A program made the position numbers and the translations under genes. 50,889 nt of DNA from a virus: positions 1 through 50,889 of IMG/VR virus record IMGVR_UViG_3300020034_000026; one strand, given 5' to 3'. Shown here piece by piece: positions 1-50,889 of this stretch (positions within the stretch are counted from its first letter, which is position 1; every line of letters starts with the position of its first letter). The notes beneath the pieces were generated by a model. The model worked only from the letters and a program-made list of their open reading frames with translations, was not told the DNA's origin and searched no databases.

Positions 1-410
1 CGTAGCCCCACCAGAGCGACCGCATCGGTGACCGAGTGGGCTCGGTCATCTCCAGGATCAACTTCGTTCCCTGTGGTTTTCCATCTGTCGATTGATACAT
101 CGACAAAGATGAGTAGAGCGGTATCCCCTACTGCTACAGGGTAGGTAGTCCTGAATCCCCCACCTCCGAGAAACATGATTGGTACATTGGGGACAACGGC
201 ACGACGGTAGGCAATCCGACTACCATCTTCTCCAATCACTACTCTTCTCAGGAGTGGCTGGATGTCTGCTCTCTGAGTAGCAGAAGAGTACCTTTCAATT
301 CTGCCTGGCATGGACACGTGAAGCTCGCCAGCTAGATGAGACTCAATAGCCTTTACAATCACCTCAGAGAAAGTAGGGACCGCTCCATTGTCATCGTCAT
401 CGATGCTCAT
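1..410 (-). CDS. Baseplate spike protein, N-terminal part (continues at 50889)
   Basis: This is the first 136 codons of a Gp138-type baseplate spike, the OB-fold piercing tip at the centre of a contractile tail. The start ATG (410-408) overlaps the stop of the hub gene (ATGA). The translation shows the family pattern: VPNVPIMFLGGGGF, then YPVAVGDTALLIFVDVSIDRW, then HSVTDAVALVGL. The ORF is still open at base 1. Reading on from base 50889 continues in frame (codon CGG, then 50888 downwards) for 80 more codons, giving a 217-aa protein ending at 50646. A copy of the dispersed motif at 69-77 is read as Thr-Thr-Gly. The family call rests on pattern recognition, and the join is visible directly. 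Confidence 0.85.
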   Translation of the reverse strand, partial: MSIDDDDNGAVPTFSEVIVKAIESHLAGELHVSMPGRIERYSSATQRADIQPLLRRVVIGEDGSRIAYRRAVVPNVPIMFLGGGGFRTTYPVAVGDTALLIFVDVSIDRWKTTGNEVDPGDDRAHSVTDAVALVGL

Positions 411-1264
411 AGGGGATTCCCGTCTATCTGAGTGTGGCAGTCTGTTCCATGGGTATCGATGGTATGCCTAAGCTTCAAGACTTTGAATCGACCATGGATG
501 TATCTGGATCGAACTTCCATGGTCCCCCCTGGTACAAGTCGCGGGTACAGGAGATTCTTGACGGTGAGTATTGGAGGCTTTCCCTTTTCTGGGGGACTGC
601 CATACTCAGGTGAACCGATCATTCCACTATTGCTTCCAGGCAGAGAGCTAATCACTGCTACTTGATCCTTGCGTAGTTCTCCCTCGCCTAGAATCTGAAC
701 CGTCCCATCCTGTATCGACCACTGCTTTTGAAATGGGCGCAGAAGACGAGTCAACTCTTTGGAGATCAGTCCATCTACAACGATGCCCGATGCGACAGTG
801 GCAGTCATATCAGCCAGCAGATTGACTCTATCGAATGGGGCGCCCATGGCAGATAGAAGATCAAAGACCACGTTACGAACGGGCGTTCCCGCTCGGTACG
901 ATTGGCTCACTTGAGCGAAACGAAATGCTCTATCTCCATCACCAACTTGGATCTTGGTAACCCAAGATGTTCCATCTTTGACACTCTCACACCAGCGCAT
1001 GTCTCCTTCGAAAACTCTTTCTAAGGAACCATCAAAGCCAGCCTCAAGTCTGATGTACAGGGGCTTTTGCTGCAGTTCTCCACGAGTCTTCTCACTGAGA
1101 TTGATGACGACCAGATCACAATTGTTTGGATCTTTCCCTAGATGCTTGTCGATGTCTGCAATGATATGCAGGTCACGGATGACAATCGCATTAGGAGATT
1201 GTGAAAAGAACGATTGCGGTCTTGCAATCGTGAGAGAGACTCCTGTCTTGAAAAGCCTAGACAT
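407..1264 (-). CDS. Baseplate hub protein
   Basis: A 285-aa protein lying between the DUF6983-like plug gene and the spike. In contractile-tail phages of this type that is the position of the gpD/gp27-like hub, which carries the spike and connects tube to baseplate. The sequence starts LFKTGVSLTIARPQSFF and contains mixed beta-rich segments such as VVINLSEKTRGEL and VKNLLYPRLVPGGTMEVRS. The latter recalls the C-terminal swivel part of hub proteins. The gene overlaps its upstream neighbour by 8 bp and the spike start by 3 bp, so translational coupling is likely. The identification comes from synteny plus general character, not from a catalytic motif. Confidence 0.7.
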   Translation of the reverse strand: MSRLFKTGVSLTIARPQSFFSQSPNAIVIRDLHIIADIDKHLGKDPNNCDLVVINLSEKTRGELQQKPLYIRLEAGFDGSLERVFEGDMRWCESVKDGTSWVTKIQVGDGDRAFRFAQVSQSYRAGTPVRNVVFDLLSAMGAPFDRVNLLADMTATVASGIVVDGLISKELTRLLRPFQKQWSIQDGTVQILGEGELRKDQVAVISSLPGSNSGMIGSPEYGSPPEKGKPPILTVKNLLYPRLVPGGTMEVRSRYIHGRFKVLKLRHTIDTHGTDCHTQIDGNPL

Positions 1265-1601
1265 CGATTTCTAGATCAAGCATCTCTTGCGCTGAGAAGT
1301 AGTACACGACCACCCGGGTACCCATGTCTTCTAGAGTAGCGTCCACACCAGTGTGGGATTGATCGAACACGCGCAGAAGCCCTGGGGGGAATCGAGGATC
1401 AGTCACACGACCACCAATCGACGCCCCTAGAACTAGCTTGAGACCAGCCCTAATCATGTCTCCATCTGCGGTGAGTACATCCATGTACCAGGCTGAATCC
1501 CTAATGTTCCATCTGATATCGAGTGTGTATTGCACACCATCGAGTGCGGTCCCAACTCGATAGTTGGGCTCGTTAGGAACTAGTGGAAGAATGCCAGGCA
1601 T
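1257..1601 (-). CDS. Baseplate/tail plug-like protein (DUF6983-like)
   Basis: A 114-aa protein with a pattern typical of the small phage baseplate family DUF6983: YRVGTALDGVQYTLDIRWN, then WYMDVLTADGDMIRAGLKLV, then DPRFPPGLLRVFD. In phages with a Pam3-like baseplate this family sits between the Dit-like protein and the hub. It starts one base after the preceding gene ends and overlaps the hub gene by 8 bp. No enzyme motif is expected. The assignment is by pattern and order of genes. Confidence 0.65.
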   Translation of the reverse strand: MPGILPLVPNEPNYRVGTALDGVQYTLDIRWNIRDSAWYMDVLTADGDMIRAGLKLVLGASIGGRVTDPRFPPGLLRVFDQSHTGVDATLEDMGTRVVVYYFSAQEMLDLEIDV

Positions 1602-1602
1602 T

Positions 1603-2276: not shown

Positions 2277-2894
2277 CTATCTTCCTCGCGTGGTCGCACC
2301 AGCGCGACGCATGTTCGAGTCCCAGAGCGACTGAACTGCCTTGCGCACCTCGGTACCGATGCCGCCTGCGTCGGCTCCCGGGCTGGTGTGCACGTGGATC
2401 TGAGCGCTGAACTGGGGCGCCTGCACCTCTACTGCACCTCCGCTTACACCTGCGGCCAGAGGCGTACGCGCCACGCTACCGGCGACCACAGGGGCACCGC
2501 CCTCGCCTCGGGAGATCGCCCGCGCGCGATCAAGGAACTTGTGGGGACCGTCACCGAATCCGATGACGTCTTTAAGAGCTTCTTTTATGTTGTGGGGAAT
2601 CTGTTTGATTCCATCGATCACCCACTGAAAGAACTCTGCAAACTGTTGCTTCCACCATGCGATGGATTCATCGAAGGTACGAGTTAGCCACTGGTCAAGT
2701 TTCTTGAGAGTGCTCTCCCCACCATTGACCCACTTCCATAGATCTCTGATTGCCCAGTTGACCCCTGCAATGATGGCTATCAAGGCAACAAAAGGCGCAG
2801 CCGCAGCAACCCATGCCGCAGCACTAGCAACCGCGGTAGCGATCGCAACCCCCTTAACGACCAAGAAAGTAGTGGCAAGAGTCGTCAATACCAA
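2277..2894 (-). CDS. Tape measure protein, C-terminal part (-1 frame)
   Basis: A 205-codon reading frame that looks like the second half of the tape measure. It begins with a long hydrophobic Ala/Val/Ile helix region (ATTFLVVKGVAIATAVASAA), then WAIRDLWKWVNGGE, and ends in a flexible Gly/Ala-rich tail. It overlaps the end of 2885-3850 by 10 bp in the -1 frame. The only initiators near its beginning are TTG codons without a ribosome binding site, so separate translation is unlikely. Joined to the upstream part it gives about 525 aa. The motif copy at 2485 is read Ala-Pro-Val-Val. Either a base is missing here or decoding shifts frame. Confidence 0.7.
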   Translation of the reverse strand: MVLTTLATTFLVVKGVAIATAVASAAAWVAAAAPFVALIAIIAGVNWAIRDLWKWVNGGESTLKKLDQWLTRTFDESIAWWKQQFAEFFQWVIDGIKQIPHNIKEALKDVIGFGDGPHKFLDRARAISRGEGGAPVVAGSVARTPLAAGVSGGAVEVQAPQFSAQIHVHTSPGADAGGIGTEVRKAVQSLWDSNMRRAGATTRGR

Positions 2895-4075: not shown

Positions 4076-4524
4076 AAAAAATCGGAGAAGTTCACCTCCA
4101 AGGAAAAGCGCAGAACCTTGAAGAGACTCATCCTCTTTCCTAGAAAAGCAAAATCGATATCCCCTCCGTTAGCCAAGTCGTATCGTTTCTTCTTCCCCTC
4201 GCGTTCTACGATGACACTCACGGGTGCCAAGAGCTGGCCAATCAGCGACCGCTGCTCGTCCACGGTCAGGCGCGCAAACAGCTGATCGACCACAGGGGCC
4301 AAGGCCCCTGCGTTGATTTTGGCAAGGCCCTCACCCACCCCGCCCGCACTTTTTGAGGGCCAGAGGCCTGCCAGGCCAGCCAGAGCGGGCCCAACAATGC
4401 GAATGAGTGCGTTCGCCAGATCAAGACTCTTCATGACAGGTAGTTGATAGACAGTAACCTCAAGTCCATCAATCGTCCGAGTCTCCGACGGCATCTCAGA
4501 GGAAGATGAGGATGGGGATGCCAT
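3964..4524 (-). CDS. Tail assembly chaperone (short form)
   Basis: A 186-aa protein between the tube and tape measure genes, the conserved place of the tail assembly chaperone. The start is taken at ATG 4524-4522, which overlaps the tube gene stop (TAATG). The longer frame reaching 4584 would intrude into the tube gene. The protein contains SLDLANALIRIVGPALAGL, FARLTVDEQRSLIGQLLAPV and FLGKRMSLFKVLRFSLEVNF. In codons 148-150 lies GAT TTT TTA, where part of the ribosomes can shift to -1 and make the 223-aa form. The motif copy at 4289 is read Ala-Pro-Val-Val. Confidence 0.85.
   Translation of the reverse strand: MASPSSSSSEMPSETRTIDGLEVTVYQLPVMKSLDLANALIRIVGPALAGLAGLWPSKSAGGVGEGLAKINAGALAPVVDQLFARLTVDEQRSLIGQLLAPVSVIVEREGKKKRYDLANGGDIDFAFLGKRMSLFKVLRFSLEVNFSDFLDFVSTFLIRLKEESPSSSPTISEIHGSSGDLSRRDN
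4075..4081 (-). promoter_or_regulatory. Programmed -1 ribosomal frameshift slippery site
   Basis: On the minus strand the heptamer T TTT TTA lies in the correct phase (0-frame codons GAT TTT TTA GAC) of the tail assembly chaperone. It is a canonical X XXY YYZ slippery heptamer. The -1 frame is open from here to 3854 and the 0 frame ends at 3964. Confidence 0.85.
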
Positions 4525-4992: not shown

Positions 4993-6351
4993 TCAGCGAG
5001 ACAGGATGATTCGGACGCCCACCTTATGGACGGCACCGGTCAACCGACCATTGGCTTCTAGCCCCGGAAAGTATCGAGCGATTCGGTCTGCTACAGACAT
5101 GTCCTCCACACGTGAGGTGATGAACTGAGGAGACTGTGGCGTCGGAGGATCATCCGAGGCGTCTGTCTCATCGATCATCACTCGATTGATGGCTCGACGG
5201 AAGGTGCCCCGAAGGGCTCCCTCAAGCTTGGTAACATCCTTGTTCGTATATGCCACCTTGGTAGGGGCGTTGAATATAACATCAGCGATGCTCTTGATGG
5301 CGTCATCCTTGATCCAGTCGATCGATCTCTGGATGTCAATGAAGTCGCCGTCCCCTGTGGTCCCGTTGAACGTGACATTGCGGCCTGCAACACGCTCGAT
5401 GGAGTTGCCATTCTTGGCTACAAGATTCCCTCTCTGAGTAGGAGTGAGGGCAACAGCGGGAACTCCGGCTAGCGTCTTCCCGAACCAAGTCTCACTGCCT
5501 GCATCCAGAGGTAGAACCTTCCCCATCCATGCGGCACCGAACATAGAAGCAGGGGAAGGATGGTAGTTGCCCATCACACGTGCGTGCGCATCGGAGGCAA
5601 TCGTATCCACGAGATCCCCACCCCCAGCAACAGTCGTAATGACCGCGCTGTCATTGGTATCGATGAGGGCAGTCTTCTCATTCGCCTCCACCCAGTCCTT
5701 TACGGCAGAGCCATAGGCAAAGGAGTTGAACATGGGGTAGACGCAGTAGAAGTCATCGTTCTCCAGACGAATAGCCGCAAGATCCGTGGCCACCCCTGGG
5801 TCAACGTGAGTCTGTGCAACAGCGAAGTCATCTACCGTAGAAACCTCGACAGAGAACCATCCCCCTGCCGCGTTAGCCGTGAGCACCAAAGTGGTGGTCC
5901 CCGTTGCCGTGTAGTTCTTCGATGCAACACCGTTGAATGCAGCAATCAGCTGGGTGACAATGGTTCCCGCTGTCGGCGATGCCGCCGAGGTAATCGACAG
6001 AACCGTGCGGCTGAAACCCTCCCCTTCTACAGTGACGTAGTAGATATGCGAGTTCCTCACCACAGGGGTAAGAATGTAGACCTGAGTTGGCGGGAGCAAA
6101 CCTCGACCGACCCGGGCATTCTGGGGATGAGGAGTCTGTGCCATGATGGCGTTGACAGCCCGCACCTCAGCGTCATCTGCGGCATACCCATCCGCCACCA
6201 TGTCAACCCCGCTAGCGTACAGACGCGAACGTTCAGAAGTTAACCATGGAGCATTGTACCCCAAGACAAAAGGAGTCCCGAACCCCAGACGAGTGAGGCC
6301 CCGAGAGTCTTTGGTAATGACCGCGTCAACGTAGTTTCTGATATCAGCCAT
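4993..6351 (-). CDS. Tail sheath protein (DUF3383-like)
   Basis: A 452-aa protein with the layout of DUF3383-type sheath proteins. The N-terminus is LTRLGFGTPFVLGYNAPW, followed by a beta-rich insertion (residues 105-185, with VTVEGEGFSRTVLSITSAA). The conserved C-terminal domain includes IDIQRSIDWIKDDAIKSIAD and ends VHKVGVRIILSR. The sheath contracts to drive the tube through the envelope. GAGGAGAGAAC precedes ATG 6351. Two copies of the dispersed motif lie inside (5352 as Thr-Thr-Gly, 6059 as Pro-Val-Val). Its presence defines the phage as a myovirus. Confidence 0.88.
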   Translation of the reverse strand: MADIRNYVDAVITKDSRGLTRLGFGTPFVLGYNAPWLTSERSRLYASGVDMVADGYAADDAEVRAVNAIMAQTPHPQNARVGRGLLPPTQVYILTPVVRNSHIYYVTVEGEGFSRTVLSITSAASPTAGTIVTQLIAAFNGVASKNYTATGTTTLVLTANAAGGWFSVEVSTVDDFAVAQTHVDPGVATDLAAIRLENDDFYCVYPMFNSFAYGSAVKDWVEANEKTALIDTNDSAVITTVAGGGDLVDTIASDAHARVMGNYHPSPASMFGAAWMGKVLPLDAGSETWFGKTLAGVPAVALTPTQRGNLVAKNGNSIERVAGRNVTFNGTTGDGDFIDIQRSIDWIKDDAIKSIADVIFNAPTKVAYTNKDVTKLEGALRGTFRRAINRVMIDETDASDDPPTPQSPQFITSRVEDMSVADRIARYFPGLEANGRLTGAVHKVGVRIILSR

Positions 6352-6958: not shown

Positions 6959-8424
6959 CAGGGCACCCCAATCCGTGAGACATAGGCTCTATAGAAGCGC
7001 TGCCCAAACGCTTGCCAGTCTTCTACCTTGATAACTTCCCACTCCTCATCTTGAATGACTACTAGATCAGGGTCTCCTTGCGCGCGCGTACGCAGGCGCG
7101 TGTTTGTGTAGACAGCCTTTACCTCACTGGCACTTTGCCCCTCACGAGGGATCTCAAGCTTGCGGCCAGTGACGGGATGATGAAAGGCAACCACAGGGAA
7201 GGGAGCGCGAGCGTTTCGTATGTACGAGCCATCAACCCATGCCCCGACCGAGGCCCGTAAAACGATCAGCGTTCCAACTCCCTCGCCACCAGCGAAGGAA
7301 GCTATCGCCCCTGTGGTTGCGCCAAAATCTTCAGTCTCAAAAGCATCAACAAACATGATGCCGAATGCTTCAGAGACATCCTCAGCAAGGCCTTCAGGAA
7401 AAAAGGTACCTTGGGCAAATCCAATTGCGAAAGCTTCAGAGGTGCTCTCAGAGATGCCAACCGGATTGACGTCACCAGAGAGAGCCCCCGTAGCTTCCGA
7501 CGTGCTCTCGGCCAGGCCCAGGGCAGTAGAGGTAGCGGCCAGGGTTCCGAGCGCCTCGCTGATATCCTGTGCCAGCCCGGTGGGCAGGGCCCAGCCAACC
7601 AAGGTACCGGTCGCCTCGGAGGTGCTCTCGGCCAGCCCTGTGGTCGCCACTCGAGCGGTCCCGACACCGACGGCGTCCGAGGGTCCGTCTTGTGCAAGCC
7701 CAGCTCCGACAGCCAGCGTCGTCTCACGAATTCGTAGGATGACAGTGGCGCCAGTCGGAAAGAATGTTGCTGCGCTTGTACCAAGAGTAGCAGTATAGGC
7801 AACTGCTACGTTTGCTGTTCCTGCGGTGACCGATTGATGAGACATGAAAAACTGCATGTCATCACCAGCGGTATTCGATGCATCTCCACGCTCGACAGCT
7901 GTACCTAAAGTGATGCCAGTAGCTGTCATCACTTCTGCACCTACACCGGAAGCAACATCTCCATTGATTCCGGTAACAGCAAGGAGCATATCCCCAGACT
8001 GAATGTCTAGAGTCTGATCTGTAACGACAGACCATGGCAGAGTAGGAACTTCGTCCACTCCGCTAACACAAGCCATTGCCCATGATAGGAGGGCACTCTT
8101 GGTCCAGCGGTACATTCGACCCCGTCCGCCATTACCTCCGGGAACGGAAAGAATGAGATTGCCTGTTTCTGTGCCATCGGCAATCTTGACCATCCACTGA
8201 ACTAGTACCTGTCCAGTGTCTACTCCAGATGGGCCAAGGCCTCCGGAACGGGATCCATTGGTTAGGATCGACCAGCCAGAGGGGACCACAGGGGGAGTGG
8301 CGGGATACTTCTCTGCGATCGCTATTGTGAGAAGATCGCCAGCCGCAATGCTAGCTGGATAGGGAAGCGTGTATGACGTGCTCCCGTTTCCCTCTGCGCC
8401 AGCTGTTCCGAATGCGACAGTCAT
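6958..8424 (-). CDS. Large virion protein with ~20-residue tandem repeats and neck-like C-terminus
   Basis: A 488-aa protein in the neck region. Residues 1-235 resemble beta-sandwich domains of phage decoration or tail proteins (SYTLPYPASIAAGDLLTIAI, then GRMYRWTKSALLSW). Residues about 241-355 contain six tandem repeats of 18-22 residues with core GLAE-S/D-T/V-SEA-T/F-G (for example GLAESTSEATGTL, GLAQDISEALGTL, GLAEDVSEAFGIM). The last 100 residues (AFHHPVTGRKLEIPREGQ, then EEWEVIKVEDWQ, YRAYVSRIGV) look like a head-tail stopper/connector domain, which normally is a separate short protein. This suggests a fusion of neck protein, repeat spacer and surface domain. Three motif copies lie inside (7190, 7308, 7636), one in the first repeat junction. 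Confidence 0.6.
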   Translation of the reverse strand: MTVAFGTAGAEGNGSTSYTLPYPASIAAGDLLTIAIAEKYPATPPVVPSGWSILTNGSRSGGLGPSGVDTGQVLVQWMVKIADGTETGNLILSVPGGNGGRGRMYRWTKSALLSWAMACVSGVDEVPTLPWSVVTDQTLDIQSGDMLLAVTGINGDVASGVGAEVMTATGITLGTAVERGDASNTAGDDMQFFMSHQSVTAGTANVAVAYTATLGTSAATFFPTGATVILRIRETTLAVGAGLAQDGPSDAVGVGTARVATTGLAESTSEATGTLVGWALPTGLAQDISEALGTLAATSTALGLAESTSEATGALSGDVNPVGISESTSEAFAIGFAQGTFFPEGLAEDVSEAFGIMFVDAFETEDFGATTGAIASFAGGEGVGTLIVLRASVGAWVDGSYIRNARAPFPVVAFHHPVTGRKLEIPREGQSASEVKAVYTNTRLRTRAQGDPDLVVIQDEEWEVIKVEDWQAFGQRFYRAYVSRIGVP

Positions 8425-9366: not shown

Positions 9367-9726
9367 CTAGATCAACACTACCCCTAGACCTAAGGTATCC
9401 AGAAGTGCCTGGTACTCTGCACCGTAGGGAGTTGTGCTGAGTTGACCCGACGAGCTACTCATAGCGAATGACCGTGAGATAGGACCTATCGTTTCCGATG
9501 TCACGGCCCCTGTGGTTCCCGAGATTCCCGAACGTGGTACCGATCCCAAGTGAGCCGCAAGAAAGAGACGGCCCAGGTACAAAGTCTCTGAGTCTTCCCC
9601 GCCCCACACTTCGACATTGAAGTCATTGTTGACGTACAAAAGAATGGCATTCTGCAGCAATGGGTCAACTGCAGCTAGCTGGGCGCCAACTGCTACAACT
9701 TCAGACCATGATACTATAGGTGCCAT
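9367..9726 (-). CDS. Head-tail connector (DUF4054-like)
   Basis: A 119-aa protein with the features of the DUF4054 adaptor family: LQNAILLYVNNDFNVEVWGG, then ETLYLGRLFLAAHLGSVPRS, then ITGxVTSETIGPISRSFA-like and YGAEYQALLDTLGLGVVLI. These small all-helical proteins sit under the portal ring and make the head-completion interface. The motif copy at 9507 encodes Thr-Thr-Gly in a loop. Confidence 0.8.
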   Translation of the reverse strand: MAPIVSWSEVVAVGAQLAAVDPLLQNAILLYVNNDFNVEVWGGEDSETLYLGRLFLAAHLGSVPRSGISGTTGAVTSETIGPISRSFAMSSSSGQLSTTPYGAEYQALLDTLGLGVVLI

Positions 9727-12723: not shown

Positions 12724-13014
12724 CTACTTTTTACGGGTCCAGCGAACGACAGATCGACGCTCAATCGAATCTTTTCGCTCATTTACCAGATCGAACGCCT
12801 TGCCCGCGTGGTAGGGAGCCGATCGCCCAGCCCTACGGATCTTCTGTTCAGTGACTCCATGGAACCTAGCGATCATCTTGGGATCCACCCCCCGACCCAG
12901 TTGAACGCGAACTTGCCTGATCTCGACAGCGCTGAGACCACAGGGGAGCCCATCTCGACGTCGCTGTATGCGATGCCTAGCCTTGATCAAGTGTAGGCGA
13001 TCGGCCCTTTTCAT
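12724..13014 (-). CDS. Small basic protein, HTH-like
   Basis: A 96-aa very basic protein (MKRADRLHLIKARHRIQRRR, then GLSAVEIRQVRVQLGRGVDP, KMIARFHGVTEQKIRRAGRS). The centre looks like a helix-turn-helix: a helix, then DPKMIARFHGVTEQKIRR. DNA or RNA binding is an inference. ATG 13014 directly follows the stop of the upstream gene. The motif copy at 12937 is read Pro-Cys-Gly, one of the rare non-standard frames. Confidence 0.5.
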   Translation of the reverse strand: MKRADRLHLIKARHRIQRRRDGLPCGLSAVEIRQVRVQLGRGVDPKMIARFHGVTEQKIRRAGRSAPYHAGKAFDLVNERKDSIERRSVVRWTRKK

Positions 13015-15246: not shown

Positions 15247-15247
15247 G

Positions 15248-33549: not shown

Positions 33550-33554
33550 AAGTC

Positions 33555-36860: not shown

Positions 36861-38246
36861 ATGAACACCATCTCATCCCAGCTGTTGCCTCATCAAACCC
36901 AGGCCTTAGACTTCGCCCTCAATAAGATCTGTTCTGCTCTGTACCTTGAGCAAGGATTGGGCAAGACATGGGTAGCGGCTGGGATGATCGAGAAACTCAT
37001 AAACCAGGGTCTCATAGTATCTTACGATGTTCAGATACTAGTCATCTGCAACAAATCTAACTTGATATCTACCTGGGTCACTACACTTAAGAAGATTCAG
37101 GGACTTGATATCTACCTCAACTGGCCTGAGTTCAAAGATGCCTCCGGGCACAGAGTCTTGATTGTCAACTACGAGAAGATGATCGATCGACGGATGCCCG
37201 CGGGAATCATCAAGGGACTTGTCTCAAAGGTACAAAAAAGAACATTCGATTTGATCGTGTACGATGAGTGTCATCGCCTAAAAGATAGGGGCTCCAAGCA
37301 CTCAAGAGTCGCAGCACGCCTCAAGTCGATTTACAAGCTAGCCTTGAGTGGCACTCCCCTAGAGCAGAAACCAATGGATCTGTTCGGACAAATGCGGTTC
37401 CTGGATAAAGACCTATTAGGAACCTTCACACAGTTCTCCCAAGAGTTTCTCCGCCCCTGTGGTTACATGGGCATGGAATGGGAGATGCGTCCCACTAAAT
37501 ACAAAGCATTCAAAAACCTCATCTCTCCGCATATCTTGCGTATGACAAAGAAAGAGACTCTGAATCTCCCTGTGCTTACCATCAAGAAAGTACCTGTCCT
37601 ACTCCTAGGTAAGCAGCGCAAGATCTACAACGAGCTACGAGATGAAATGGTAGCTGATCTATCTAGGGGTCAAGTCACGGCACCCATGGCCATGACCAAG
37701 ATCCTACGCTTGCAGCAAGTCTGTGGCGGCTTCGTACCGAACGATGATGGAGACGTGATGACCACAGGGGAAGCGAAGCTCCGCAAGCTGGGCGTCCTAC
37801 TCAGGCGGCTCCCCTCCCCTGTGGTCATCTTCTGCCGCTTCCTGAGCGAGGTGAACGCTGTGCTGGGCTCCCTCAACGGCCACCAAAGGGACACCGGTCG
37901 AGCCTGGAAGATTGACGGCTCAGTGGGTGAGAAGGGTCGCGCGGAAATTCTACGTAAGTTTCAGGCTGGACAAGTTGACTACTTGGTCTGCCAGATCAAG
38001 ACAGGAGGGGTAGGGGTAGACTTGTATGCAGCTAACTCAGCCATCATCTACTCTCAGACTTGGTCCAGCATAGACAACGATCAGGCTATCTCGAGACTGC
38101 ATCGAATGATGCAGGAGAGACCAGTAACCATCTACAAGCTTGTGGCAGTGGATACCGTAGATGAGGATATCAACGATGCCATTGACTACAAGAGAGATGT
38201 TATCAAGTATGTACTCAAAGGACTAAACAAAACATGTCTAGGGTAA
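36861..38246 (+). CDS. SNF2-family DEAD/DEAH-like helicase
   Basis: A 461-aa protein: LLPHQTQALDFALNKICSAL (Q-motif-like), YLEQGLGKTWVAAGMIEKLI (Walker A), FDLIVYDECHRLKDRGSKHS (DECH, motif II, about 133), ALSGTPLEQKPMDLFGQMRF (motif III), and C-terminal GQVDYLVCQIKTGGVGVDLY, SQTWSSIDNDQAISRLHRMM (motifs V and VI). It should translocate on DNA and act with the VRR-NUC nuclease in recombination or replication restart. Three motif copies lie within it (37454, 37761, 37816); the last two form an inverted pair 46 bases apart in a GC-rich patch. Confidence 0.85.
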   Translation: MNTISSQLLPHQTQALDFALNKICSALYLEQGLGKTWVAAGMIEKLINQGLIVSYDVQILVICNKSNLISTWVTTLKKIQGLDIYLNWPEFKDASGHRVLIVNYEKMIDRRMPAGIIKGLVSKVQKRTFDLIVYDECHRLKDRGSKHSRVAARLKSIYKLALSGTPLEQKPMDLFGQMRFLDKDLLGTFTQFSQEFLRPCGYMGMEWEMRPTKYKAFKNLISPHILRMTKKETLNLPVLTIKKVPVLLLGKQRKIYNELRDEMVADLSRGQVTAPMAMTKILRLQQVCGGFVPNDDGDVMTTGEAKLRKLGVLLRRLPSPVVIFCRFLSEVNAVLGSLNGHQRDTGRAWKIDGSVGEKGRAEILRKFQAGQVDYLVCQIKTGGVGVDLYAANSAIIYSQTWSSIDNDQAISRLHRMMQERPVTIYKLVAVDTVDEDINDAIDYKRDVIKYVLKGLNKTCLG

Positions 38247-38953: not shown

Positions 38954-39295
38954 ATGCCTCCCAATGCAGACGCTGTCATCATGCGATTGATCAGGTACGT
39001 ACACAACCACAGGGGGGTGCATGATTTCTGCAGCGTCAAGGATTGCTGGCTACTCAGCAAGCTTTCGAACCTGGCGGAGACAGCGCGCATGGTGGGCAGC
39101 AACGAGCGTCAAGACGATATCGTCAAGTGGCTACACAGCATCGGTCAAGAGGAGATAGCCGCAAGAATCGACGAGCATATGTTCAGTCGAGACTTTCAAA
39201 AATACAATGAAATCGGATCCGAGAAAGTCATCGTTGACTCATCAATCACAGATCTAAACAGACCAGAAAAAGGCAAAGGCGCAGACGAACCATGA
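38954..39295 (+). CDS. Hypothetical protein
   Basis: A 113-aa protein; ATG 38954 is chosen because the longer frame is antisense-like within the zinc-ribbon gene. MPPNADAVIMRLIRYVHNHR, CWLLSKLSNLAETARMVGSN, ERQDDIVKWLHSIGQEEIAA: helical, with a charged C-terminus. The motif copy at 39006 is read Asn-His-Arg-Gly, an exception to the two common frames. Confidence 0.5.
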   Translation: MPPNADAVIMRLIRYVHNHRGVHDFCSVKDCWLLSKLSNLAETARMVGSNERQDDIVKWLHSIGQEEIAARIDEHMFSRDFQKYNEIGSEKVIVDSSITDLNRPEKGKGADEP

Positions 39296-40960: not shown

Positions 40961-41716
40961 ATGACCATCAATCTGAACATCTCTCCCATCGCCAATCAAG
41001 AGGATGACCTAGTCCCCGATAGGGAGCGCCGTAACTCTGTCTTTGGCCTGGCAGTCCATACCACAGGGGGAGGGATCTTAGAGGAGGCCAAAAAGGATGG
41101 CGTCAACATCCAAGGTCCAGATCTCATCTGGTATATCATCAAATACTATGCCAGGGCCAAGTACTCCTGCAACTACATCATTCACTACGATGGCAAGATC
41201 TATCAAGTCACTCACGATGATAGACGAGTCTCCCATATAGGTGTTGATGTTCCAGAGAGAGACAAGTATCTCTCTGGCAAGTGGATCACCCAGGTGCCAA
41301 AGACTCCCCTACTTCTGTGGCAAAAGACTTGGCAGGGAAAGTCAAGCCCCCAAGTTCTCTTCCCCAACCACTTCCCCAACGATGACTACGTCGGAGCCGA
41401 GATGCCGATCCTGGCCACGCCGCGAGCCAACGGGCTTCGCTACACGGACGAACAACACCACTCGGTCGCACGCCTGGCCATCGACCTGTGGCGACGCCAC
41501 GGCTGGCCCAGGGAGACCCTGGTGCAGGCCTCCAAGGACTCCCGGGCGCTCCCCTGTGGTCGCCTGCTGGGTCACGAGGACCTGGATGCCTTCGGGCGCT
41601 GGCAGGCGACCGGGGGGTGGGACCCAGGCGCTCTACGGCCGCGCCCCTGGTGGAGCTGGCCGCTGGTCCGGTTCTTCCTGCAACTGGAATTAGCCAACCA
41701 AACCCTTGCAACCTAG
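40961..41716 (+). CDS. N-acetylmuramoyl-L-alanine amidase endolysin
   Basis: A 251-aa protein; ATG 40961 is chosen for its AAGGAAG ribosome binding site (an open frame extends to 40856). The amidase_2/PGRP-like pattern is visible: VFGLAVHTTGGGILEEAKKD (first zinc His), then YSCNYIIHYDGKIYQVTHDD, HIGVDVPERD, YTDEQHHSVARLAIDL, and LLGHEDLDAFGRWQATGGWD, P-G (second His and the D-P-G end). It cuts peptidoglycan at lysis. The last third is encoded by a GC-rich patch with the motif copy at 41551 (Pro-Cys-Gly); another copy at 41060 forms the Thr-Thr-Gly of the catalytic HTTGGG segment. Confidence 0.82.
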   Translation: MTINLNISPIANQEDDLVPDRERRNSVFGLAVHTTGGGILEEAKKDGVNIQGPDLIWYIIKYYARAKYSCNYIIHYDGKIYQVTHDDRRVSHIGVDVPERDKYLSGKWITQVPKTPLLLWQKTWQGKSSPQVLFPNHFPNDDYVGAEMPILATPRANGLRYTDEQHHSVARLAIDLWRRHGWPRETLVQASKDSRALPCGRLLGHEDLDAFGRWQATGGWDPGALRPRPWWSWPLVRFFLQLELANQTLAT

Positions 41717-42841: not shown

Positions 42842-42895
42842 TTGAGCATGTATTACCCCACCACAGGGGTATTGCGCAAGCTGAAAAATGAATCG

Positions 42896-43766: not shown

Positions 43767-44209
43767 GGTTGCTTTACCTCCGGGGTAGGGGCTTGGGTGG
43801 GCGCTACAGGCAAGGGACTGGTAGGGGATGGGACAACCACAGGGGCCCGATTTGCTTTCTTCAAGCGACGAGCGTCTGCCTTCGGAAGATTGCGAGCTAG
43901 CACTGCTTTGATGATTGCAAGGTCGGCAATGATCGCATCGATCTTGTCACCCTGATCTTGATCTGTATCTTCCTTCGCTGCCTGATCTCTGATGATGCGC
44001 GTGCTAACGACCTTGGCTTGCTTGGCTACCGCATCCGTGTTGTCAAGTGACTCGTTCGTCTCGACGACTTTATCCTCAACCTTAGTGCTCTTGTAGTAAG
44101 CACCTCCACCGAGACCCCCTGCCCCTAGAAGAACACTAACGATAAAGACTGCCCAAGACTTCTTGACCGGTATGTAGAACGTCCGATCATTGTCTCTCTC
44201 AAACATCAT
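43763..44209 (-). CDS. Membrane protein with coiled periplasmic part
   Basis: A 148-aa protein; ATG 44209 overlaps the stop of the upstream gene (ATGA). One transmembrane helix near the start (SWAVFIVSVLLGAGGLGGGA) is followed by a helical domain (NTDAVAKQAKVVSTRIIRDQ, KIDAIIADLAIIKAVLARNL) and a Pro-rich tail with the motif copy at 43836 (Ala-Pro-Val-Val). The inner-membrane anchor plus helical and Pro-rich regions recall i-spanins, but this is only an analogy. Confidence 0.5.
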   Translation of the reverse strand: MMFERDNDRTFYIPVKKSWAVFIVSVLLGAGGLGGGAYYKSTKVEDKVVETNESLDNTDAVAKQAKVVSTRIIRDQAAKEDTDQDQGDKIDAIIADLAIIKAVLARNLPKADARRLKKANRAPVVVPSPTSPLPVAPTQAPTPEVKQP

Positions 44210-45048
44210 GGATTCCGGGGGCGGTTCCATATGATAATAGCTCCTCGGATGATGTCTGCCGCAATCGCGGGAGCCTGGTACTCCATCTGGTAGACGCCAG
44301 GAATCAGCACAGTGTCGGGAAAGTTGAAAGTCCGCGGCCCCTCCCCTGTGGTTGACACAGTGATGGTCGAGACGATCGCGCTTCCGATTCCTCCGCTGTC
44401 GATCTTGTGCAATCTTAGGAGTCTGTTGCCAGCTTCATTGGCCTCACCATGAATGATGACGGACAACAGCTGGGCACCTTCCATGATTGGTACAGGGATA
44501 TGCAGGCGACCATTGTTGGCAACAAGCCACCCTCCTGCATCTACTCCTGTAGAAGTGAGGTAGGAGCAAGCTGCAGGAGTTGGAGTATTCATCATGCAGG
44601 CAGCGATACCCAGACGATCACTCACAGTGAAGTAATTGCGATCGGACTGGAGATCTCCACCAACATCCATGGGTCCAGCAAACTCGGCCCCACCGGTAGA
44701 GAACAGAAGTGCCCCATTCAGGATCGATATCTCATCATTGAAAGTAACGTTACCGTTGATCTCGACAGCATTCTCGAAACCACAGGGGCCCTGAACTTCA
44801 AGTTCTCCCTCAATGGCTAGGTTCCCGTCTCCGGTACCATCGGCATTGATGCTATGGTTCCCGAAGAGTACTCCATCCCGGAGGTACTCTTGCCACTGAA
44901 AATCCAGGTTGGCTAGCCAATTGAAGTACTCAGCTGGAGGTGCAACTTCACCGGCGAGCCATCCACTATCTTTCTTGATCGATGGGGGCTCAACGATCAG
45001 ACCCCCAACGTTTGCCCATCGTCCAACTTGTGTCGGCTTGACTGCCAT
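44206..45048 (-). CDS. Tail-associated beta-helix-like virion protein
   Basis: A 280-aa protein starting KPTQVGRWANVGGLIVEPPS, then SGWLAGEVAPPAEYFNWLAN (a phrase typical of phage tail proteins that attach by their N-terminus). Next are repeated short beta strands (NLAIEGELEVQGPCGFENAV, EINGNVTFNDEISILNGALL), and a C-terminal beta domain. It is probably a short tail fibre or accessory receptor-binding protein. Two motif copies lie inside (44343, Thr-Thr-Gly; 44779, Pro-Cys-Gly). Confidence 0.65.
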   Translation of the reverse strand: MAVKPTQVGRWANVGGLIVEPPSIKKDSGWLAGEVAPPAEYFNWLANLDFQWQEYLRDGVLFGNHSINADGTGDGNLAIEGELEVQGPCGFENAVEINGNVTFNDEISILNGALLFSTGGAEFAGPMDVGGDLQSDRNYFTVSDRLGIAACMMNTPTPAACSYLTSTGVDAGGWLVANNGRLHIPVPIMEGAQLLSVIIHGEANEAGNRLLRLHKIDSGGIGSAIVSTITVSTTGEGPRTFNFPDTVLIPGVYQMEYQAPAIAADIIRGAIIIWNRPRNP

Positions 45049-45072: not shown

Positions 45073-45741
45073 TCAGTTGGAGCGGGCGCCCCCGAGAATG
45101 CCAGAATCGAATCCTGGGCCATCATTGAACGTAAACATGTCTTCTGTAGGAGCGGGTGAAAACTCCATGACTGTTCTCACCCCTGCTGAAGTAGCAGCAC
45201 CCAGGAACATGATGAGTTGATCCGCTTGTTCGACACCCACAATCATATCTGTGAAGTCGATCAGCTGAGTTGCCGGTGGTGAGATCGTGTAGACAAGAAT
45301 CCCGGCCCCACTAGACAACACAAGACGAGCTATATGGAGCAACTCTTCTGGTGTACCACTACTCTGATTGACCAGAATTCTGGCATTGATGAGATTGAGG
45401 TACTCTGGATCAGTCAACGTTCCACGATCTCGTTGTCCAACAATCCTACCGATGACATTCAGCTGTTCCCCTTCTGAAGTGGTAAGGGAACGGTTGTGAA
45501 GCATTTGGCAGAACATCTCTTCTATCTGTTGAACCGGTGCAATAAAAGCACTCAGCAGAGCTTGAATTTTGGGGCGACGGAATCTCTCAATCAGTCTTTC
45601 GAGGGCTTGAGCAGTGTGGTCATGGATGCAAAGATCAGCACCTATGACCACAGGGGGGATGTCATCGTCATCTCCACCACCAAGGGGACCGAACAGTCCG
45701 CCCCACTCGGAGAATCCCCAGTATCCGTCACCCCAGCTCAT
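45073..45741 (-). CDS. Baseplate protein, tail protein I-like (DUF2612)
   Basis: A 222-aa protein with the DUF2612 pattern: FIAPVQQIEEMFCQMLHNRS, GEQLNVIGRIVGQRDRGTLT, DPEYLNLINARILVNQSSGT, PEELLHIARLVL. This family, like P2 gpI, lies at the outer baseplate and holds the fibres. The N-terminus is WGDGYWGFSEWGG. In this phage it lies after the large tailspike rather than between J and the fibre. The motif copy at 45647 encodes Pro-Pro-Val-Val. Confidence 0.75.
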   Translation of the reverse strand: MSWGDGYWGFSEWGGLFGPLGGGDDDDIPPVVIGADLCIHDHTAQALERLIERFRRPKIQALLSAFIAPVQQIEEMFCQMLHNRSLTTSEGEQLNVIGRIVGQRDRGTLTDPEYLNLINARILVNQSSGTPEELLHIARLVLSSGAGILVYTISPPATQLIDFTDMIVGVEQADQLIMFLGAATSAGVRTVMEFSPAPTEDMFTFNDGPGFDSGILGGARSN

Positions 45742-45744: not shown

Positions 45745-48700
45745 TTACCATCCAAATGCGGTCAACGAATTGGCTGCATTGTCGATAGCTTCTGCAGCGG
45801 CACCGGTGAATACCCATTGCCGCAGACAGAAAGCAACAGGACTGGTTCCCGTACCCCCACCGATACCCTTGAAAGAACCATCGGTCACAGTGGCATTGTA
45901 AGTGCCTGTGATGGTCTCATAGGGAGTACGTACTCTAACTCTTCCAGCCGTACGATTGTACGCAGCAAGGATAGGAAGAACATGACGCCTATGATCCACA
46001 AGTCCGTCCGTCGTCACTCCTGCGCAGTTGATACGTAGGATTCCTGTCGATTGTACAGCGACCCAAAGCGGTGTTCCTGAAGTAGCACCGATGACATAGA
46101 ACTCCCGCGCGGCACCAGCACTAATAAACTGCCACCATCCATAGAAAGCAACACTGGTAGAGTTGGGGTTGTAGAGAGCTTGATTGGAGAAGATGAATCT
46201 CTGAGTTGCTACCTCAGTGAATCCCACCCCATTCTCGGCCCACCCAATAATGTCATTGACAAAGGTGGGGCTAGCGTTTGCGTCCAGAGTTGCCGCGCCT
46301 ACCACAGGGGCCAGGGGCGTGGAGGCATCCTGCATCAACCATCCAGCGGTCGGCGAGGGGAGCGCAGGGTCGGCTCCGGTGAACTCTGCAGCTGTGGCGG
46401 GGATGACCCCGGTGCCCCAGTTGCCAGCCTCGCGCGTGTACACGGTACGGCTCTTGAAGGCCCCCGTGAGCCGGCGCGCGGTCGATCCATCGGGCGCGGA
46501 AAACGGCGGGTCTGAGTCCGCCGAGTAGATGTAGTCGCCGACGGTACCGAGTCCCTGTCCTCCACCAATCTGAATGATGGGGGCTACGGCAATACCATCG
46601 ATGCCAGTACCATCACCCGTGTTCCCACAGATGAATGGTACACGCGGCAAGGCACCAAATCCTCCGATACCGCCAAGCTTCACCTTTCCGCTAGTGATGC
46701 CACGATAGTGATTGAAAGTAATCTGAAGCCCCTCGATGCCGAATGTACTAGACACCGATAGACCATTGACTAGTACGCCTGGGCCACGATTGACGATCAG
46801 ATTGCCCTGAAACAGAACGTTGTCTGATCGAATACTGTTGGCATTGATGATGACAGACTGAGGAATCGATCCACTCGTGTGCCTATGCGTGAACTCGTTG
46901 CCCTGAACCATCAGCTCGGGAACGTTTTCAAAGTTGGCGCATGGAGCGATCCCGAACTGCTCAATCTTGTTTCCCTGAAACTGAACCTGCGCAGGATTCG
47001 ATCCACCTGTAGCAGCAATCAGGACTGCCTCATTGTCTGTGTCACTCACCGGTCGCGTGATGGTGTTGCCACGGAAAATGAGCTTGTTGAAAGTAGACCG
47101 GAACGACACTACAGGCTGGTTGTGGTTACTCGGAGGCTCAATGATGTTGTCCTCAAACAACATGTTGCTGCAGTCGAGTGCGTCAATACATCCTGCAACG
47201 CGGTTGCGCGCAAAGATGAACGAGGAGTTTGGATGGGTGTTATTGAGCCCGGTAAGAGTGACAGCAATAGTTCCTGCTGTACTTTCGATGATGTTGTCGC
47301 AGATGATCGATCGACGCGGTGATGTATTCTCTGGATTCGATCCACCCGTGGGCTCATGGTCAATTGCCTGGTCTCCAGTGTTACGGAATCGATTTCCGAT
47401 AATCATATAGTCGTCAACATTGCGCTGCAGACCAATACCGCTTCGATTGCAGTAGTTAAAGTCACAGTGAGCAATGAGGATGTTGACAACACCACCAATG
47501 ACATCTCCACCGACGGCATGAAAACGCCACGTCACCCCACCATCGTTGATAGAACTACCAGTCCCCGTAGGAGCGGTGACCCCTGTCGTGCCAGCAGACA
47601 AAGCTTCATAGACATTTCCCGCGTTGGTGCGGTAGCCACCGAGTCCAACGACGCTCCCTGTGGTCCATGCCACGGGATGCCCCAAGGGCGCACCAACCAT
47701 CTGAATGGCATCACCAGGACTATTGTAGAACCAGCAGTTGGTGATGCTAACACCATCGACCAAACCTAGATCCGTGCTGTTCCCGCCGAACCGGAGATTG
47801 TGAGTTTGTTCCTCGATGTTGGTGAGATTGGCAACGTTGCCATCAAATGCCATGTCTCGGAAACTGATTCGAGAACAGTTGCCATGGACATAGACTCCAT
47901 ACCAAGTTCCGTCACCACCATCACCAGTCATTTTGATGATGGAACCGGGGCCTTCACCTACGATCTCGAAATCGTGGACGTTGTGAAGAATGACCGCTCC
48001 AAGGTCTTCCGCACGAGGAGTGAGATAGACACCTTTGGGAATAAAGATTCCCCGGAGACCATTGGCTTTGGCGAAATCAATAGCAGCCTGAATCGCTGCA
48101 AGGTCATCCGTTGCCCCATCGCCCACCGCTCCGCCAGCGTAGGCCACGTCTCTGATGTTGGCGTGGGTCCCCGCCCCACCCCCTCCGCTCCCCGGGGGCC
48201 CGGGCTCCCCTGGTTCGCCTGGGTCCCCCTGCTCTCCCTGCGGTCCTTCGAGCCCAACCACGTCGATCCAGTCGGGCACCCCAGCAGTCAACGAAAGGAT
48301 CTGTCCGTTGGACCCAGGAGCTAGGCGAGTGACTCGGCCAGCGCCATTTGCATACCAAACGGTGCCGGATGCAGCCCCTGCCAGCTGCCCTAGATCCGTC
48401 TTCTCATTCGTAGTCGGGATACGGGGGACTGCTGCCTCGAACAGAGATAGAGCAGCCTTCTCCCCGGTGGTCGGAAGCCTTGCATCAACATCTCTGATGA
48501 GTTGATCTTGCTCGATGTCCCATCCAGTGAATTGGAGGCTCTCTCCTCTACCAGGAATCCTCCTCCCATTTGGAAGTAGAACAGCAATAGCTCCCTGCGT
48601 ACTCTTGAATCTTGTGGCATCAGATGGATCCGTTTCGAATGATGACTCTTCTCCTTCACCATCACTAAAGGTGTACTTGAGAAGATAGGTCCCTGATACG

Positions 48701-48930: not shown

Positions 48931-48931
48931 C

Positions 48932-50269
48932 TTATGGAGTCCCATCGGTTGCGATGACAATAATGCGGCTACTATCATACAGAGCTAGTTGCCGCAAACT
49001 CATTGGTAGAACAGCGGTACCCGCAGGACTAGGGGAAAATCCAACTCGAACATCAGTGACATTCAGAACTCCCTGAACCTTAAATGCTTGTCCTGAGATT
49101 GCGCTAGGGACAACATCCCGTCCAGACTCTTGGTTATCCCCGTAGTCAATGATGGCCCTCACCACAGCCGCACTGCCTGGGTATACTCGTCTATCCTTTT
49201 GCAAGGCAACACTGATGTAAACAGGTATCTCAGTAGGACGAGTATGGAAGATGTCTTGTACCGTTCCTTCACTGTCGATGATGGTGCCGGCTATACTTCC
49301 GAAAGTTGGGATACCACCAGAGACACAAGCCCAGAGAGTATCTCTGATATCTTGGTCCACCCCTCCACGTACGAGCGCCTCTACGGAATGGGGTGGTAGA
49401 CCAAAGGCATCATAGTAGTCTGTTGAATTCTTGAAGACGCTAGCAGCGATCACTCCAGGTAGGCGAAGCAGTCGTGCACGGATCGCATCAGGAGGGGAAG
49501 TCCCCTTCCCTGCAGTCTCTTGACCACGACGGATGCGTAAACTTTCGTTCGATTCCTTCGATCGCCCCAAGTCTGCATCTAGAAGATTCCGAACGCTCTG
49601 CAGACCACCAACGGCAGTCACAATTTCATTGATAGTGTTGGCTAACCCAAGAATGGCATCTAGCTCAACAGACTCTATCGGGGTATCGATGACAGCCGTT
49701 CCCTCACCGATGTACCTCCACGATACCGATCCATCGACGACCACAGGGAGGTCCGTCGTAGGCCCCCCGCTGGCTGCACTCACTCCATCGAAGAGTGCTT
49801 GGTAGACACGCGACGCATTAGTGACTCTGTCACCTTGGCTGTATCCAGTGCTGGCTATCCATGCAGTAGCAGCGACCAGCGTAATTGCCCCTATGGTCTG
49901 AAATTCTTTGCCAGTGACTTCGACAGCAAACTTGGTTCGGATAGGAACTACTGTTCCGGGGCTACCGGTGAGAGTCTCTATCACAGTCGATGGGGTGGGC
50001 AGTCTTGGCTCAGTCCCAGTGATAGCCGAGACCTGAACCAAAGACTCATCCACTGCTGCATCAGGATCAGCCGATGCGTTGACTGCCTGCCCAAACTGGC
50101 AGAGCAAAGCAAGACGTTCAGAGAAGATAGAGATCAGGTGGCCCACCAGACTCTTGTCTTCCAGAGCTTCTACTGGAATGGACAGAACTCCAGCTATACT
50201 ACTCCTCAGTCCTGCAGCTATCTCTTCCTGAGTCTCGATAACCAACCCTTGGGGAGTAAGAGCAATCAT
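48932..50269 (-). CDS. Baseplate J-like protein
   Basis: A 445-aa protein: LVIETQEEIAAGLRSSIAGV, LCQFGQAVNASADPDAAVDE, LVQVSAITGTEPRLPTPSTV, VPIRTKFAVEVTGKEFQTIG, then NTINEIVTAVGGLQSVRNLL, SNESLRIRRGQETAGKGTSP and PGVIAASVFKN. This is the classical P2 gpJ / T4 gp6 wedge pattern. A beta insertion around residues 130-210 holds the motif copy at 49740 (Pro-Val-Val). ATG 50269 follows the gp25-like stop without a gap. Confidence 0.88.
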   Translation of the reverse strand: MIALTPQGLVIETQEEIAAGLRSSIAGVLSIPVEALEDKSLVGHLISIFSERLALLCQFGQAVNASADPDAAVDESLVQVSAITGTEPRLPTPSTVIETLTGSPGTVVPIRTKFAVEVTGKEFQTIGAITLVAATAWIASTGYSQGDRVTNASRVYQALFDGVSAASGGPTTDLPVVVDGSVSWRYIGEGTAVIDTPIESVELDAILGLANTINEIVTAVGGLQSVRNLLDADLGRSKESNESLRIRRGQETAGKGTSPPDAIRARLLRLPGVIAASVFKNSTDYYDAFGLPPHSVEALVRGGVDQDIRDTLWACVSGGIPTFGSIAGTIIDSEGTVQDIFHTRPTEIPVYISVALQKDRRVYPGSAAVVRAIIDYGDNQESGRDVVPSAISGQAFKVQGVLNVTDVRVGFSPSPAGTAVLPMSLRQLALYDSSRIIVIATDGTP

Positions 50270-50641
50270 CTAGATACTCCTTTGGAAGTTGACTTTACCG
50301 AGTTCAGTGATAGCTACTATGTCAACGTCAAGTTTGCGTGTGCTTGTATTGAAATTGACAGTGAGTTTGTCGATGCCAGTGACGGCAAGACTTGTAAGAG
50401 TTGCATCTCGAAAGATAGACAGTGCTCGAACCTGCCTGAACTTGTGGCCCAGCAACTCCTGAAAGTAGGGAACACCCTGCTCTAGATTGTTGAACCATTC
50501 CCCAAGAAACGTGGAGATGGAGATATCCAGAAGTTGGCGAACACCAATGGATCCGAGAGCAAAATGCAACTGCCCCCCTGTGGTATCCAAGTCCCCATCA
50601 CTCTCAGAGAGCAGGATATCGAGTCTATCATTCTCAGTCAT
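50270..50641 (-). CDS. Baseplate wedge protein gp25/gpW-like
   Basis: A 123-aa protein; ATG 50641 has AAGG upstream. RLDILLSESDGDLDTTGGQL, then RQLLDISISTFLGEWFNNLE, QGVPYFQELLG and a terminal LDVDIVAITELGKVNF is the T4 gp25 / P2 gpW / DUF2634-like pattern (FLGEWxxxxxxGVPY). It connects sheath and baseplate wedge. The motif copy at 50575 encodes Thr-Thr-Gly. Confidence 0.82.
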   Translation of the reverse strand: MTENDRLDILLSESDGDLDTTGGQLHFALGSIGVRQLLDISISTFLGEWFNNLEQGVPYFQELLGHKFRQVRALSIFRDATLTSLAVTGIDKLTVNFNTSTRKLDVDIVAITELGKVNFQRSI

Positions 50642-50645
50642 GTAT

Positions 50646-50889
50646 CTATCGTACCTTTGCAATGGTAGACAGATAGCTAGCGTTACCAGCCTTGAAGGTA
50701 GTAATGACCGCTCGTAACGCAGTGGCTGCAGGACCCCCGCCCGGGATCGCTGCGATGGCCGTGGCGATGGCGTCCAGCACCAAGTTCTCGGCCGCGCGGT
50801 ACGCCGGCGCGAGGATGGTGGGCTGGGCCCCCGCCCCTCCTACACGGATCTCGGTGGCGGAGTACTCAACCACAGGGCCCCCGTCCATC
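50646..50889 (-). CDS. Baseplate spike protein, C-terminal part (continues from base 1)
   Basis: The last 81 codons of the Gp138-type spike that starts at 410. The codon spanning the window ends is CGG, followed by MDGGPVVEYSATEIRVGGAG and AQPTILAPAYRAAENLVLDA; the gene stops at 50648-50646. The frame has no start of its own with a ribosome binding site in the window; the ATG at 50888 is internal. The motif copy at 50869 encodes Pro-Val-Val just after the OB-fold. The protein is 217 aa in all. Confidence 0.82.
   Translation of the reverse strand, partial: MDGGPVVEYSATEIRVGGAGAQPTILAPAYRAAENLVLDAIATAIAAIPGGGPAATALRAVITTFKAGNASYLSTIAKVR

Follow-up and report, generated by a model that had tools for sequence, protein, structure and literature searches.

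The stretch of DNA analyzed here (the window) is a 50,889-base virus record from IMG/VR, IMGVR_UViG_3300020034_000026, that carries the sheath, portal, terminase, and baseplate genes of a contractile-tailed phage, together with a replication module that includes a primase-helicase gene (Table 1). A minus-strand open reading frame (ORF) in the baseplate region leaves the window at position 1 (1-410) and resumes in frame from position 50889 downward (50663-50889). Because this ORF is continuous across the two ends, the record probably represents a complete genome that is circularly permuted. The subject of this report is a short DNA word, ACCACAGGG, that recurs throughout this genome, and its relationship to the phage primase.

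Our recount reproduces exactly the numbers given in a first-pass annotation of the window: 44 copies of the 9-mer ACCACAGGG (27 on the plus strand and 17 on the minus strand), 35 copies of the 10-mer ACCACAGGGG, and 14 copies of the 12-mer ACCACAGGGGCC. The excess stands after Markov correction, as a third-order model predicts only 0.49 copies of the 9-mer and 0.16 copies of the 10-mer. The flanks are conserved as well, with a purine before the word in 37 of 43 copies and after it in 42 of 43, which yields the extended form RACCACAGGGR. On the opposite strand, the core of the word reads TGTG[G/C]. Variants with one mismatch are close to chance (18 versus 12.2 expected), and the word is therefore sharp. 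Copies are present in both orientations at a density of about one per 1.15 kb, and their orientation is not aligned with transcription (25 versus 19, p = 0.45). No origin is indicated by GC skew and word orientation in the window.

By our gene calls, 41 copies are coding and three are intergenic. The coding copies are read as PVV (20), TTG (15), PCG (4), LWS (1), or HRG (1) in one-letter amino acid code; the 42 genic copies, 36 of them PVV or TTG, reported in the first-pass annotation differ from our 41 and 35 only through gene calling. In both favored frames, the wobble positions of four-fold degenerate codons coincide with word positions 3, 6, and 9. When synonymous codons are shuffled, the number of genic words falls to a mean of 1.06 and a maximum of 5 in 500 shuffles, compared to 39 observed. 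In addition, PVV occurs 23 times in window proteins (4.5 expected) and TTG occurs 16 times (5.2 expected), and the word spells 19 of the former and 14 of the latter. Homologues could be aligned at 18 sites; of the 214 aligned cells there, only 4 hold an identical tripeptide and 28 are gapped, and most differences are substitutions. Because homologues do not preserve the tripeptides, the DNA word is the target of selection, which works through synonymous and amino acid changes and mostly without insertion. The earlier proposal that the DNA is selected and that proteins accommodate it is borne out, whereas its description of PVV and TTG as short insertions is not. We rejected both protein-level conservation and an insertion element as sources of the word, on the identity and gap counts, respectively.

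Table 1. Replication module genes and copies of the word in the window. For words, the strand is that of ACCACAGGG; GTG/CCCTGTGGT is read on the other strand. Tripeptides encoded by coding copies are in parentheses.
Feature	Position	Strand	Remarks
RepB-type archaeo-eukaryotic primase (putative) fused to AAA_25 (RepA/DnaB-like) helicase	27941..30055	-	phrog_3123 E=2e-50; proposed word reader
DNA polymerase A with N-terminal uracil-DNA glycosylase domain	31162..33549	+	replication module
Cas4/RecB-like PD-(D/E)XK nuclease	33513..34598	+	replication module
Sak4-like RecA-fold protein	34519..35349	+	replication module
DUF669 protein, single-strand binding by annotation in a relative	35365..36171	+	replication module
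SNF2-type helicase	36861..38246	+	replication module
ACCACAGGG	69..77	-	coding (TTG)
ACCACAGGG	2485..2493	+	coding (PVV)
ACCACAGGG	4289..4297	+	coding (PVV)
ACCACAGGG	5353..5361	-	coding (TTG), tail sheath
ACCACAGGG	6059..6067	+	coding (PVV), tail sheath
ACCACAGGG	7190..7198	+	coding (PVV)
ACCACAGGG	7309..7317	-	coding (TTG)
ACCACAGGG	7636..7644	-	coding (TTG)
ACCACAGGG	8285..8293	+	coding (PVV)
ACCACAGGG	9508..9516	-	coding (TTG)
ACCACAGGG	12937..12945	+	coding (PCG)
ACCACAGGG	13479..13487	+	intergenic
ACCACAGGG	14270..14278	+	coding (PVV)
ACCACAGGG	14737..14745	-	coding (TTG)
ACCACAGGG	16193..16201	-	coding (TTG), portal
ACCACAGGG	17264..17272	+	coding (PVV), large terminase
ACCACAGGG	20005..20013	+	coding (PVV)
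ACCACAGGG	20589..20597	+	coding (PVV)
ACCACAGGG	24468..24476	+	coding (TTG)
ACCACAGGG	26669..26677	+	coding (PVV)
ACCACAGGG	26896..26904	+	coding (PVV)
ACCACAGGG	27076..27084	+	coding (PVV)
ACCACAGGG	31121..31129	-	intergenic
ACCACAGGG	31534..31542	+	coding (TTG), DNA polymerase
ACCACAGGG	31898..31906	-	coding (LWS), DNA polymerase
ACCACAGGG	34364..34372	-	coding (PVV), Cas4-like nuclease
ACCACAGGG	35802..35810	-	coding (PVV)
ACCACAGGG	35899..35907	+	coding (TTG)
ACCACAGGG	37455..37463	-	coding (PCG), SNF2 helicase
ACCACAGGG	37761..37769	+	coding (TTG), SNF2 helicase
ACCACAGGG	37817..37825	-	coding (PVV), SNF2 helicase
ACCACAGGG	39006..39014	+	coding (HRG)
ACCACAGGG	41060..41068	+	coding (TTG), amidase
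ACCACAGGG	41552..41560	-	coding (PCG), amidase
ACCACAGGG	42860..42868	+	intergenic
ACCACAGGG	43836..43844	+	coding (PVV)
ACCACAGGG	44344..44352	-	coding (TTG)
ACCACAGGG	44779..44787	+	coding (PCG)
ACCACAGGG	45647..45655	+	coding (PVV)
ACCACAGGG	46301..46309	+	coding (PVV), tail spike
ACCACAGGG	47656..47664	-	coding (TTG), tail spike
ACCACAGGG	49740..49748	+	coding (PVV), baseplate
ACCACAGGG	50576..50584	-	coding (TTG), baseplate
ACCACAGGG	50869..50877	+	coding (PVV), ORF running off window end

Within the window primase-helicase, the Pfam AAA_25 profile is matched with E=4e-16, and the RepB_primase profile is matched with E=0.002, which is under its cut-off. The same RepB_primase profile is matched over the cut-off in the phages Muddy, Shrew, PMBT14, and HerculesXL and in viral contig G112. 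A profile of the primase family, constructed from 17 members including that of the window, matches RSF1010 RepB' (PDB 3h20, E=4e-7; 3h25, E=4e-6). Across these sequences, D99 and D101 of the catalytic DxD are invariant, and L160, R161, P163, G164, and N167 of the RxPGTxN segment are invariant or nearly so. Based on the profile match and these residues, we classify the protein as a RepB-type archaeo-eukaryotic primase. The helicase half varies among phages that carry the primase, being AAA_25 in the window and most others and DUF3987 in contigs G096 and G112 and in phage Nonagon, while the primase half is common. Residues ~220-290, which follow the catalytic domain where a helix-bundle domain would be expected, are modeled as helical (predicted local distance difference test [pLDDT] score of 72-81) within a poor whole model (pLDDT 44.5). 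The window primase lies on a long branch of the primase tree, which agrees with the longer and sharper word of this phage, and the window Sak4 is 47-55% identical to the Sak4 proteins of phages with a plain CCTGTGG word. The domain fused to the N terminus of the window DNA polymerase (PolA) belongs to the Pfam UDG superfamily (E=1e-21).

Words built on the same core are a recurring property of phages with this primase. Of 22 phages with the primase, 18 have a TGTG[G/C] hexamer ([CG]TGTG[GC]) in the top three of 2080, as compared to none of 42 sequences without it (p=2e-12), in a comparison that left out all sequences found by the word. Among published phages picked solely by homology of PolA, Cas4, or the primase, CTGTGG or GTGTGG is the first or second hexamer in MW202455, a Desulfofustis phage, MW202777, PMBT14 (GTGTGG, 73 versus 21.7 expected), Serbin, Strzyga, and Yersinia P744, and also in Gibbous, Muddy, Emalyn, HerculesXL, Triscuit, Lebethron, JacoRen57, and Shrew (GGTGTGGA, 36 versus 1.7 expected). 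More distant primases are accompanied by TGTGC words, as in Molivia (GTGTGC, 107 versus 31 expected), Jojan60 (CTGTGC, 87 versus 29 expected), and Nonagon (AGCACAGG, 22 versus 0.9 expected). These dialects cluster on the primase tree, requiring 6 changes compared to a mean of 12.1 after shuffling, and none of 200 shuffles gave a value as low. Thus, the window word, which the first-pass annotation considered to fit nothing known, represents one dialect of a TGTG[G/C] word common to phages with a RepB-type primase, and no more extreme case was found.

Searching for inverted pairs of the window word recovered contig G094, with 20 copies, and the smaller contigs G096 and G102. These contigs carry the related dialects ACCACAGG and CACCACAGG and share replication genes with the window; the only structural match is the large terminase (TerL) of G094. 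Salmonella phage BP63 has a different word, TTGTGGGT (30 versus 1.5 expected), whose spacing is very even (coefficient of variation 0.63, p=0.001), and its primase falls under the profile threshold, with a weak DUF3987 match. Gordonia phage DumpTruck encodes a Prim-Pol (PF09250) primase, Cas4, and Sak4 and has the dispersed word CTGGCGGA (30 versus 3.9 expected), which is possibly another primase dialect.

The word travels with the primase and not with virion genes or with the host. The best structural relative of the window, contig G119 (IMGVR_UViG_3300038379_000063), matches its sheath, portal, capsid, and baseplate at 30-51% identity. Neither the primase nor the Cas4-like nuclease nor Sak4 has a detected relative in this contig, which has one copy of the window word and no dominant TGTG[G/C] word. 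More generally, the window word is absent from the TerL and portal relatives examined. The 8-base palindrome GTTTAAAC is enriched in four TerL-related contigs, among them G019, each of which has 11-29 copies. Roughly half of the copies are inside ORFs, and some are within longer inverted repeats such as AGAGCGTTTAAACGCTCT; these are probably operator-like sites or another class of word. With regard to hosts, the word family is found in phages of Pseudomonas, Serratia, Yersinia, Brevundimonas, Desulfofustis, and several actinobacteria, and phages that share a host differ. For example, GGCCACAC occurs 40 times in HerculesXL and twice in Triscuit (Microbacterium), TCCACACC occurs 37 times in Shrew and four times in Nonagon, which uses the AGCACAGG dialect (Curtobacterium), and AGGCACAG occurs 16 times in CMP1 and once in CN1A.

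This distribution bears on whether the phage merely mirrors a host-wide word, such as an uptake sequence, a HIP1-like repeat, or a host Chi site. The density of one copy per 1.15 kb and the reading-frame pattern do resemble those of uptake sequences, but the presence of one word family in phages of unrelated hosts, and its divergence among phages of one host, make this explanation very improbable. Moreover, the bacterial matches inspected are inverted-repeat elements and the viral-contig matches are largely collagen-like repeats. Two-copy, same-orientation scans of viral and bacterial collections returned, among the matches listed, mainly collagen-like repeats and GGGCAACCACAGGGGG...TTGCCCCTAC inverted repeats, and no host is indicated. 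No phage-like excess of the word was observed in 20 genomes sampled from the phylum of a Desulfobacterales bacterium. Cyanobacterial, Gemmatimonadota, and other genomes harbor dispersed copies of an inverted-repeat element that has GGGCAACCACAGGGGGATTGCCCCTAC-like units, and the occurrence of ACCACAGGG within this element is a coincidence.

We consider it probable that the copies of the word are lagging-strand initiation sites for the phage's own RepB-type primase. The pRN1 primase reads 5'-GTG and places its first dinucleotide across from the two bases immediately 5' of this triplet (PMC8076596), RepB' recognizes GTG in ssiA (PMC4434180), and NrS-1 prefers GTGG or GTGA in the template (PMC8718748). 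In primases of this superfamily, a helix-bundle domain is the reader of GTG (PMC8076596, PMC4434180, PMC8718748). By analogy, the template-strand site in the window would be 5'-Y CCC T GTG GT Y-3', wherein the helix-bundle domain would bind to GTGGT and primer synthesis by the catalytic domain would begin opposite T, generating pppA-G-G-G-R (pppAGGG in the window). An initiating A is predicted because T precedes GTG in every strong TGTG[G/C] word, as it also does in TTGTGGGT of BP63. The A would generally be followed by G or C, and the primer predicted for Muddy or Shrew is pppACC. About one site per kilobase in both orientations could supply the starts of Okazaki-type fragments. The need for start points would then preserve exact copies, with proteins tolerating the Pro-Val-Val or Thr-Thr-Gly imposed on them. 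Among the roles suggested in the first-pass annotation, we therefore favor priming over recombination, condensation, and anti-defence.

The arrangement of the words in the wider phage family is consistent with this proposal. Word density is ~0.5-1.5 per kb in most carriers, and spacing across 22 phages is more even than random (combined p=2e-9); density and even spacing fit sites that must not lie too far apart. The GTG strand is also biased regardless of gene direction in Muddy (32:8), Emalyn (34:9), Lebethron (34:11), and STP12 (9:32), which fits the expectation for a signal linked to the direction of replication.

Another possibility is that the word acts like Chi, such that the Cas4/RecB-like nuclease and SNF2 helicase degrade DNA ends up to the word, whereupon Sak4 is loaded for recombination-dependent replication. 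About one GT-rich word per kilobase in both orientations would suit such a signal, Sak4 and the Cas4-like nuclease accompany the word in nearly all carriers, BP63 has Sak4 together with its word, and the three primase carriers that have no TGTG[G/C] word (see below) also have no detected Sak4. Indeed, a rule that Sak4 determines the presence of the word fitted equally well until two phages were considered. Clavibacter phage CMP1 encodes the primase and SNF2 helicase and has the dominant word CTGTGCCT (16 versus 0.63 expected), but no Sak4, window-type Cas4, or PolA was detected in it. This argues against a Chi-like signal of that module. Conversely, CGphi29 has Sak4 and a Toprim (DnaG-type) primase but no word, and Mcat18 likewise has Sak4 but no word. 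A nuclease of the window's Cas4 type is missing from Molivia, Jojan60, and Nonagon, all of which have the word. On balance, we regard a Chi-like role as unlikely.

The words could alternatively be sites for another protein of the module, such as its SNF2 helicase or the single-strand binding protein of the phage, that function in fork restart or DNA condensation. All phages that combine a TGTG[G/C] word with a detected primase, among them CMP1, do encode an SNF2 helicase. However, the SNF2-bearing, primase-less G011, G019, CGphi29, and Mcat18 have no TGTG[G/C] word, CN1A and Pan2 have SNF2 and no such word, and we found no precedent for sequence-specific action of this kind. This makes the proposal quite improbable, less so than the host-wide explanation above but more so than a Chi-like role.

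Several observations weigh against assigning the word to the primase. The word does not occur in every phage with such a primase, which limits the rule: no clear word is seen in the primase carriers Kradal and Pan2, CN1A has only CCGTGCG, and all three are without detected Sak4. A word in every such phage is not a hallmark of priming sites in general, because a primase that reads only GTG needs no enrichment. In the opposite direction, STP12 and contig G105 have the word without a detected primase. The record of STP12, a Pseudomonas phage (OR754314), is 36 kb and labeled complete, with polA 3.9 kb from its left end, where the primase of relatives would lie nearby; it seems to be truncated near the expected primase locus. 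G105 is a viral fragment in which GACCACA occurs 74 times (11 expected) and which has divergent Cas4 and Sak4 genes; no primase is recognizable in it, and a 985-amino acid protein (13979-16936) has no Pfam or PHROG match. CMP1, for its part, still has recombination genes, as its record lists two from other families, an annealing protein and an exonuclease. The ubiquity of SNF2 noted above counts here too, and the module is mostly inherited as a block, such that discriminating cases are few. Within the window, neither the evenness of spacing (p=0.21) nor the strand bias of 17:27 (p=0.17) reaches significance. Finally, a structure prediction for the primase domain, built with three sequences, gave a poor model whose best PDB match by Foldseek is RepB' 3h20, at only E=0.1.

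The proposed sites can be compared with several known systems. Primase start sites are commonly viewed as three-base signals that are far more frequent than needed. The priming proposal shares with pRN1 ORF904, RSF1010 RepB', and NrS-1 PrimPol the primase family (for RepB', by profile) and an invariant GTG, and a start opposite the base 5' of GTG would give an initiating A in the phages. In contrast to those systems, the proposed phage site spans 6-11 bases with conserved flanks, is lineage-specific, and is present in tens of copies genome-wide, whereas pRN1 needs GTG alone (PMC8076596) and each strand of RSF1010 carries a single 40-nt ssi site (PMC4434180). Phage T7 also encodes a primase with preferred start sites, 5'-(G/T)2GTC-3', of which ~6-37 are active in a genome; with its Okazaki fragments measuring ~1-6 kb (PMC12839067), these sites are similar in number and spacing to the words described here. 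However, the T7 enzyme is a DnaG/zinc-domain primase whose trinucleotide core occurs 504 times in the lagging-strand region, whereas in the present phages the enriched word itself has the needed density.

Other dispersed words are less similar. Chi sites are likewise short, asymmetric, located mostly in genes, and present in both orientations, but they are read by host RecBCD or AddAB, whereas the word follows a phage primase and occurs in CMP1, where neither Sak4 nor a window-type Cas4 was detected. Uptake sequences (USS/DUS) share the density of about one per kilobase and the preferred frames with mild amino acids, but near-miss copies in the window are not clearly in excess, and the word follows phage genes rather than hosts. 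Mycobacteriophage stoperators are tens of dispersed, asymmetric sites in one phage (~30 in some temperate phages), and are largely intergenic and aligned with transcription. If the word were a repressor or stoperator site that silences the genome, a similar placement might be seen, yet nearly all copies in the window are in genes, are unaligned with transcription, and belong to a family that follows the primase. We judge this last explanation, like a host-wide word, very unlikely.

In our assessment, the word likely belongs to a known kind of element, the primase initiation site, and what is new is that the sites are long, lineage-specific, and distributed genome-wide. We found no account of such words in the open-access literature, in a limited search that does not prove absence; matches to the word itself in that literature were noise of a primer-like kind. 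With somewhat less confidence, we favor the broader view that phages with RepB-type primases carry genome-wide priming vocabularies: lineage-specific words of ~6-11 bases around a T-GTG core, present about once per kilobase under strong selection in coding DNA, that co-evolve with the primase as dialects.

If this is true, then the start sites of a replication enzyme could be read directly from genome sequence, and these sites would be long, sharp, evenly spaced, different among lineages, and strong enough to shape protein sequence. This would bear on how a phage chooses the starts of its Okazaki fragments. Because carriers include the laboratory-tractable phages Muddy, Shrew, HerculesXL, PMBT14, and Serbin, site choice, primase specificity, and their co-evolution are testable. 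The findings also offer a caution for work on phage motifs, in that an enriched word can belong to the replisome of the phage rather than to its host.

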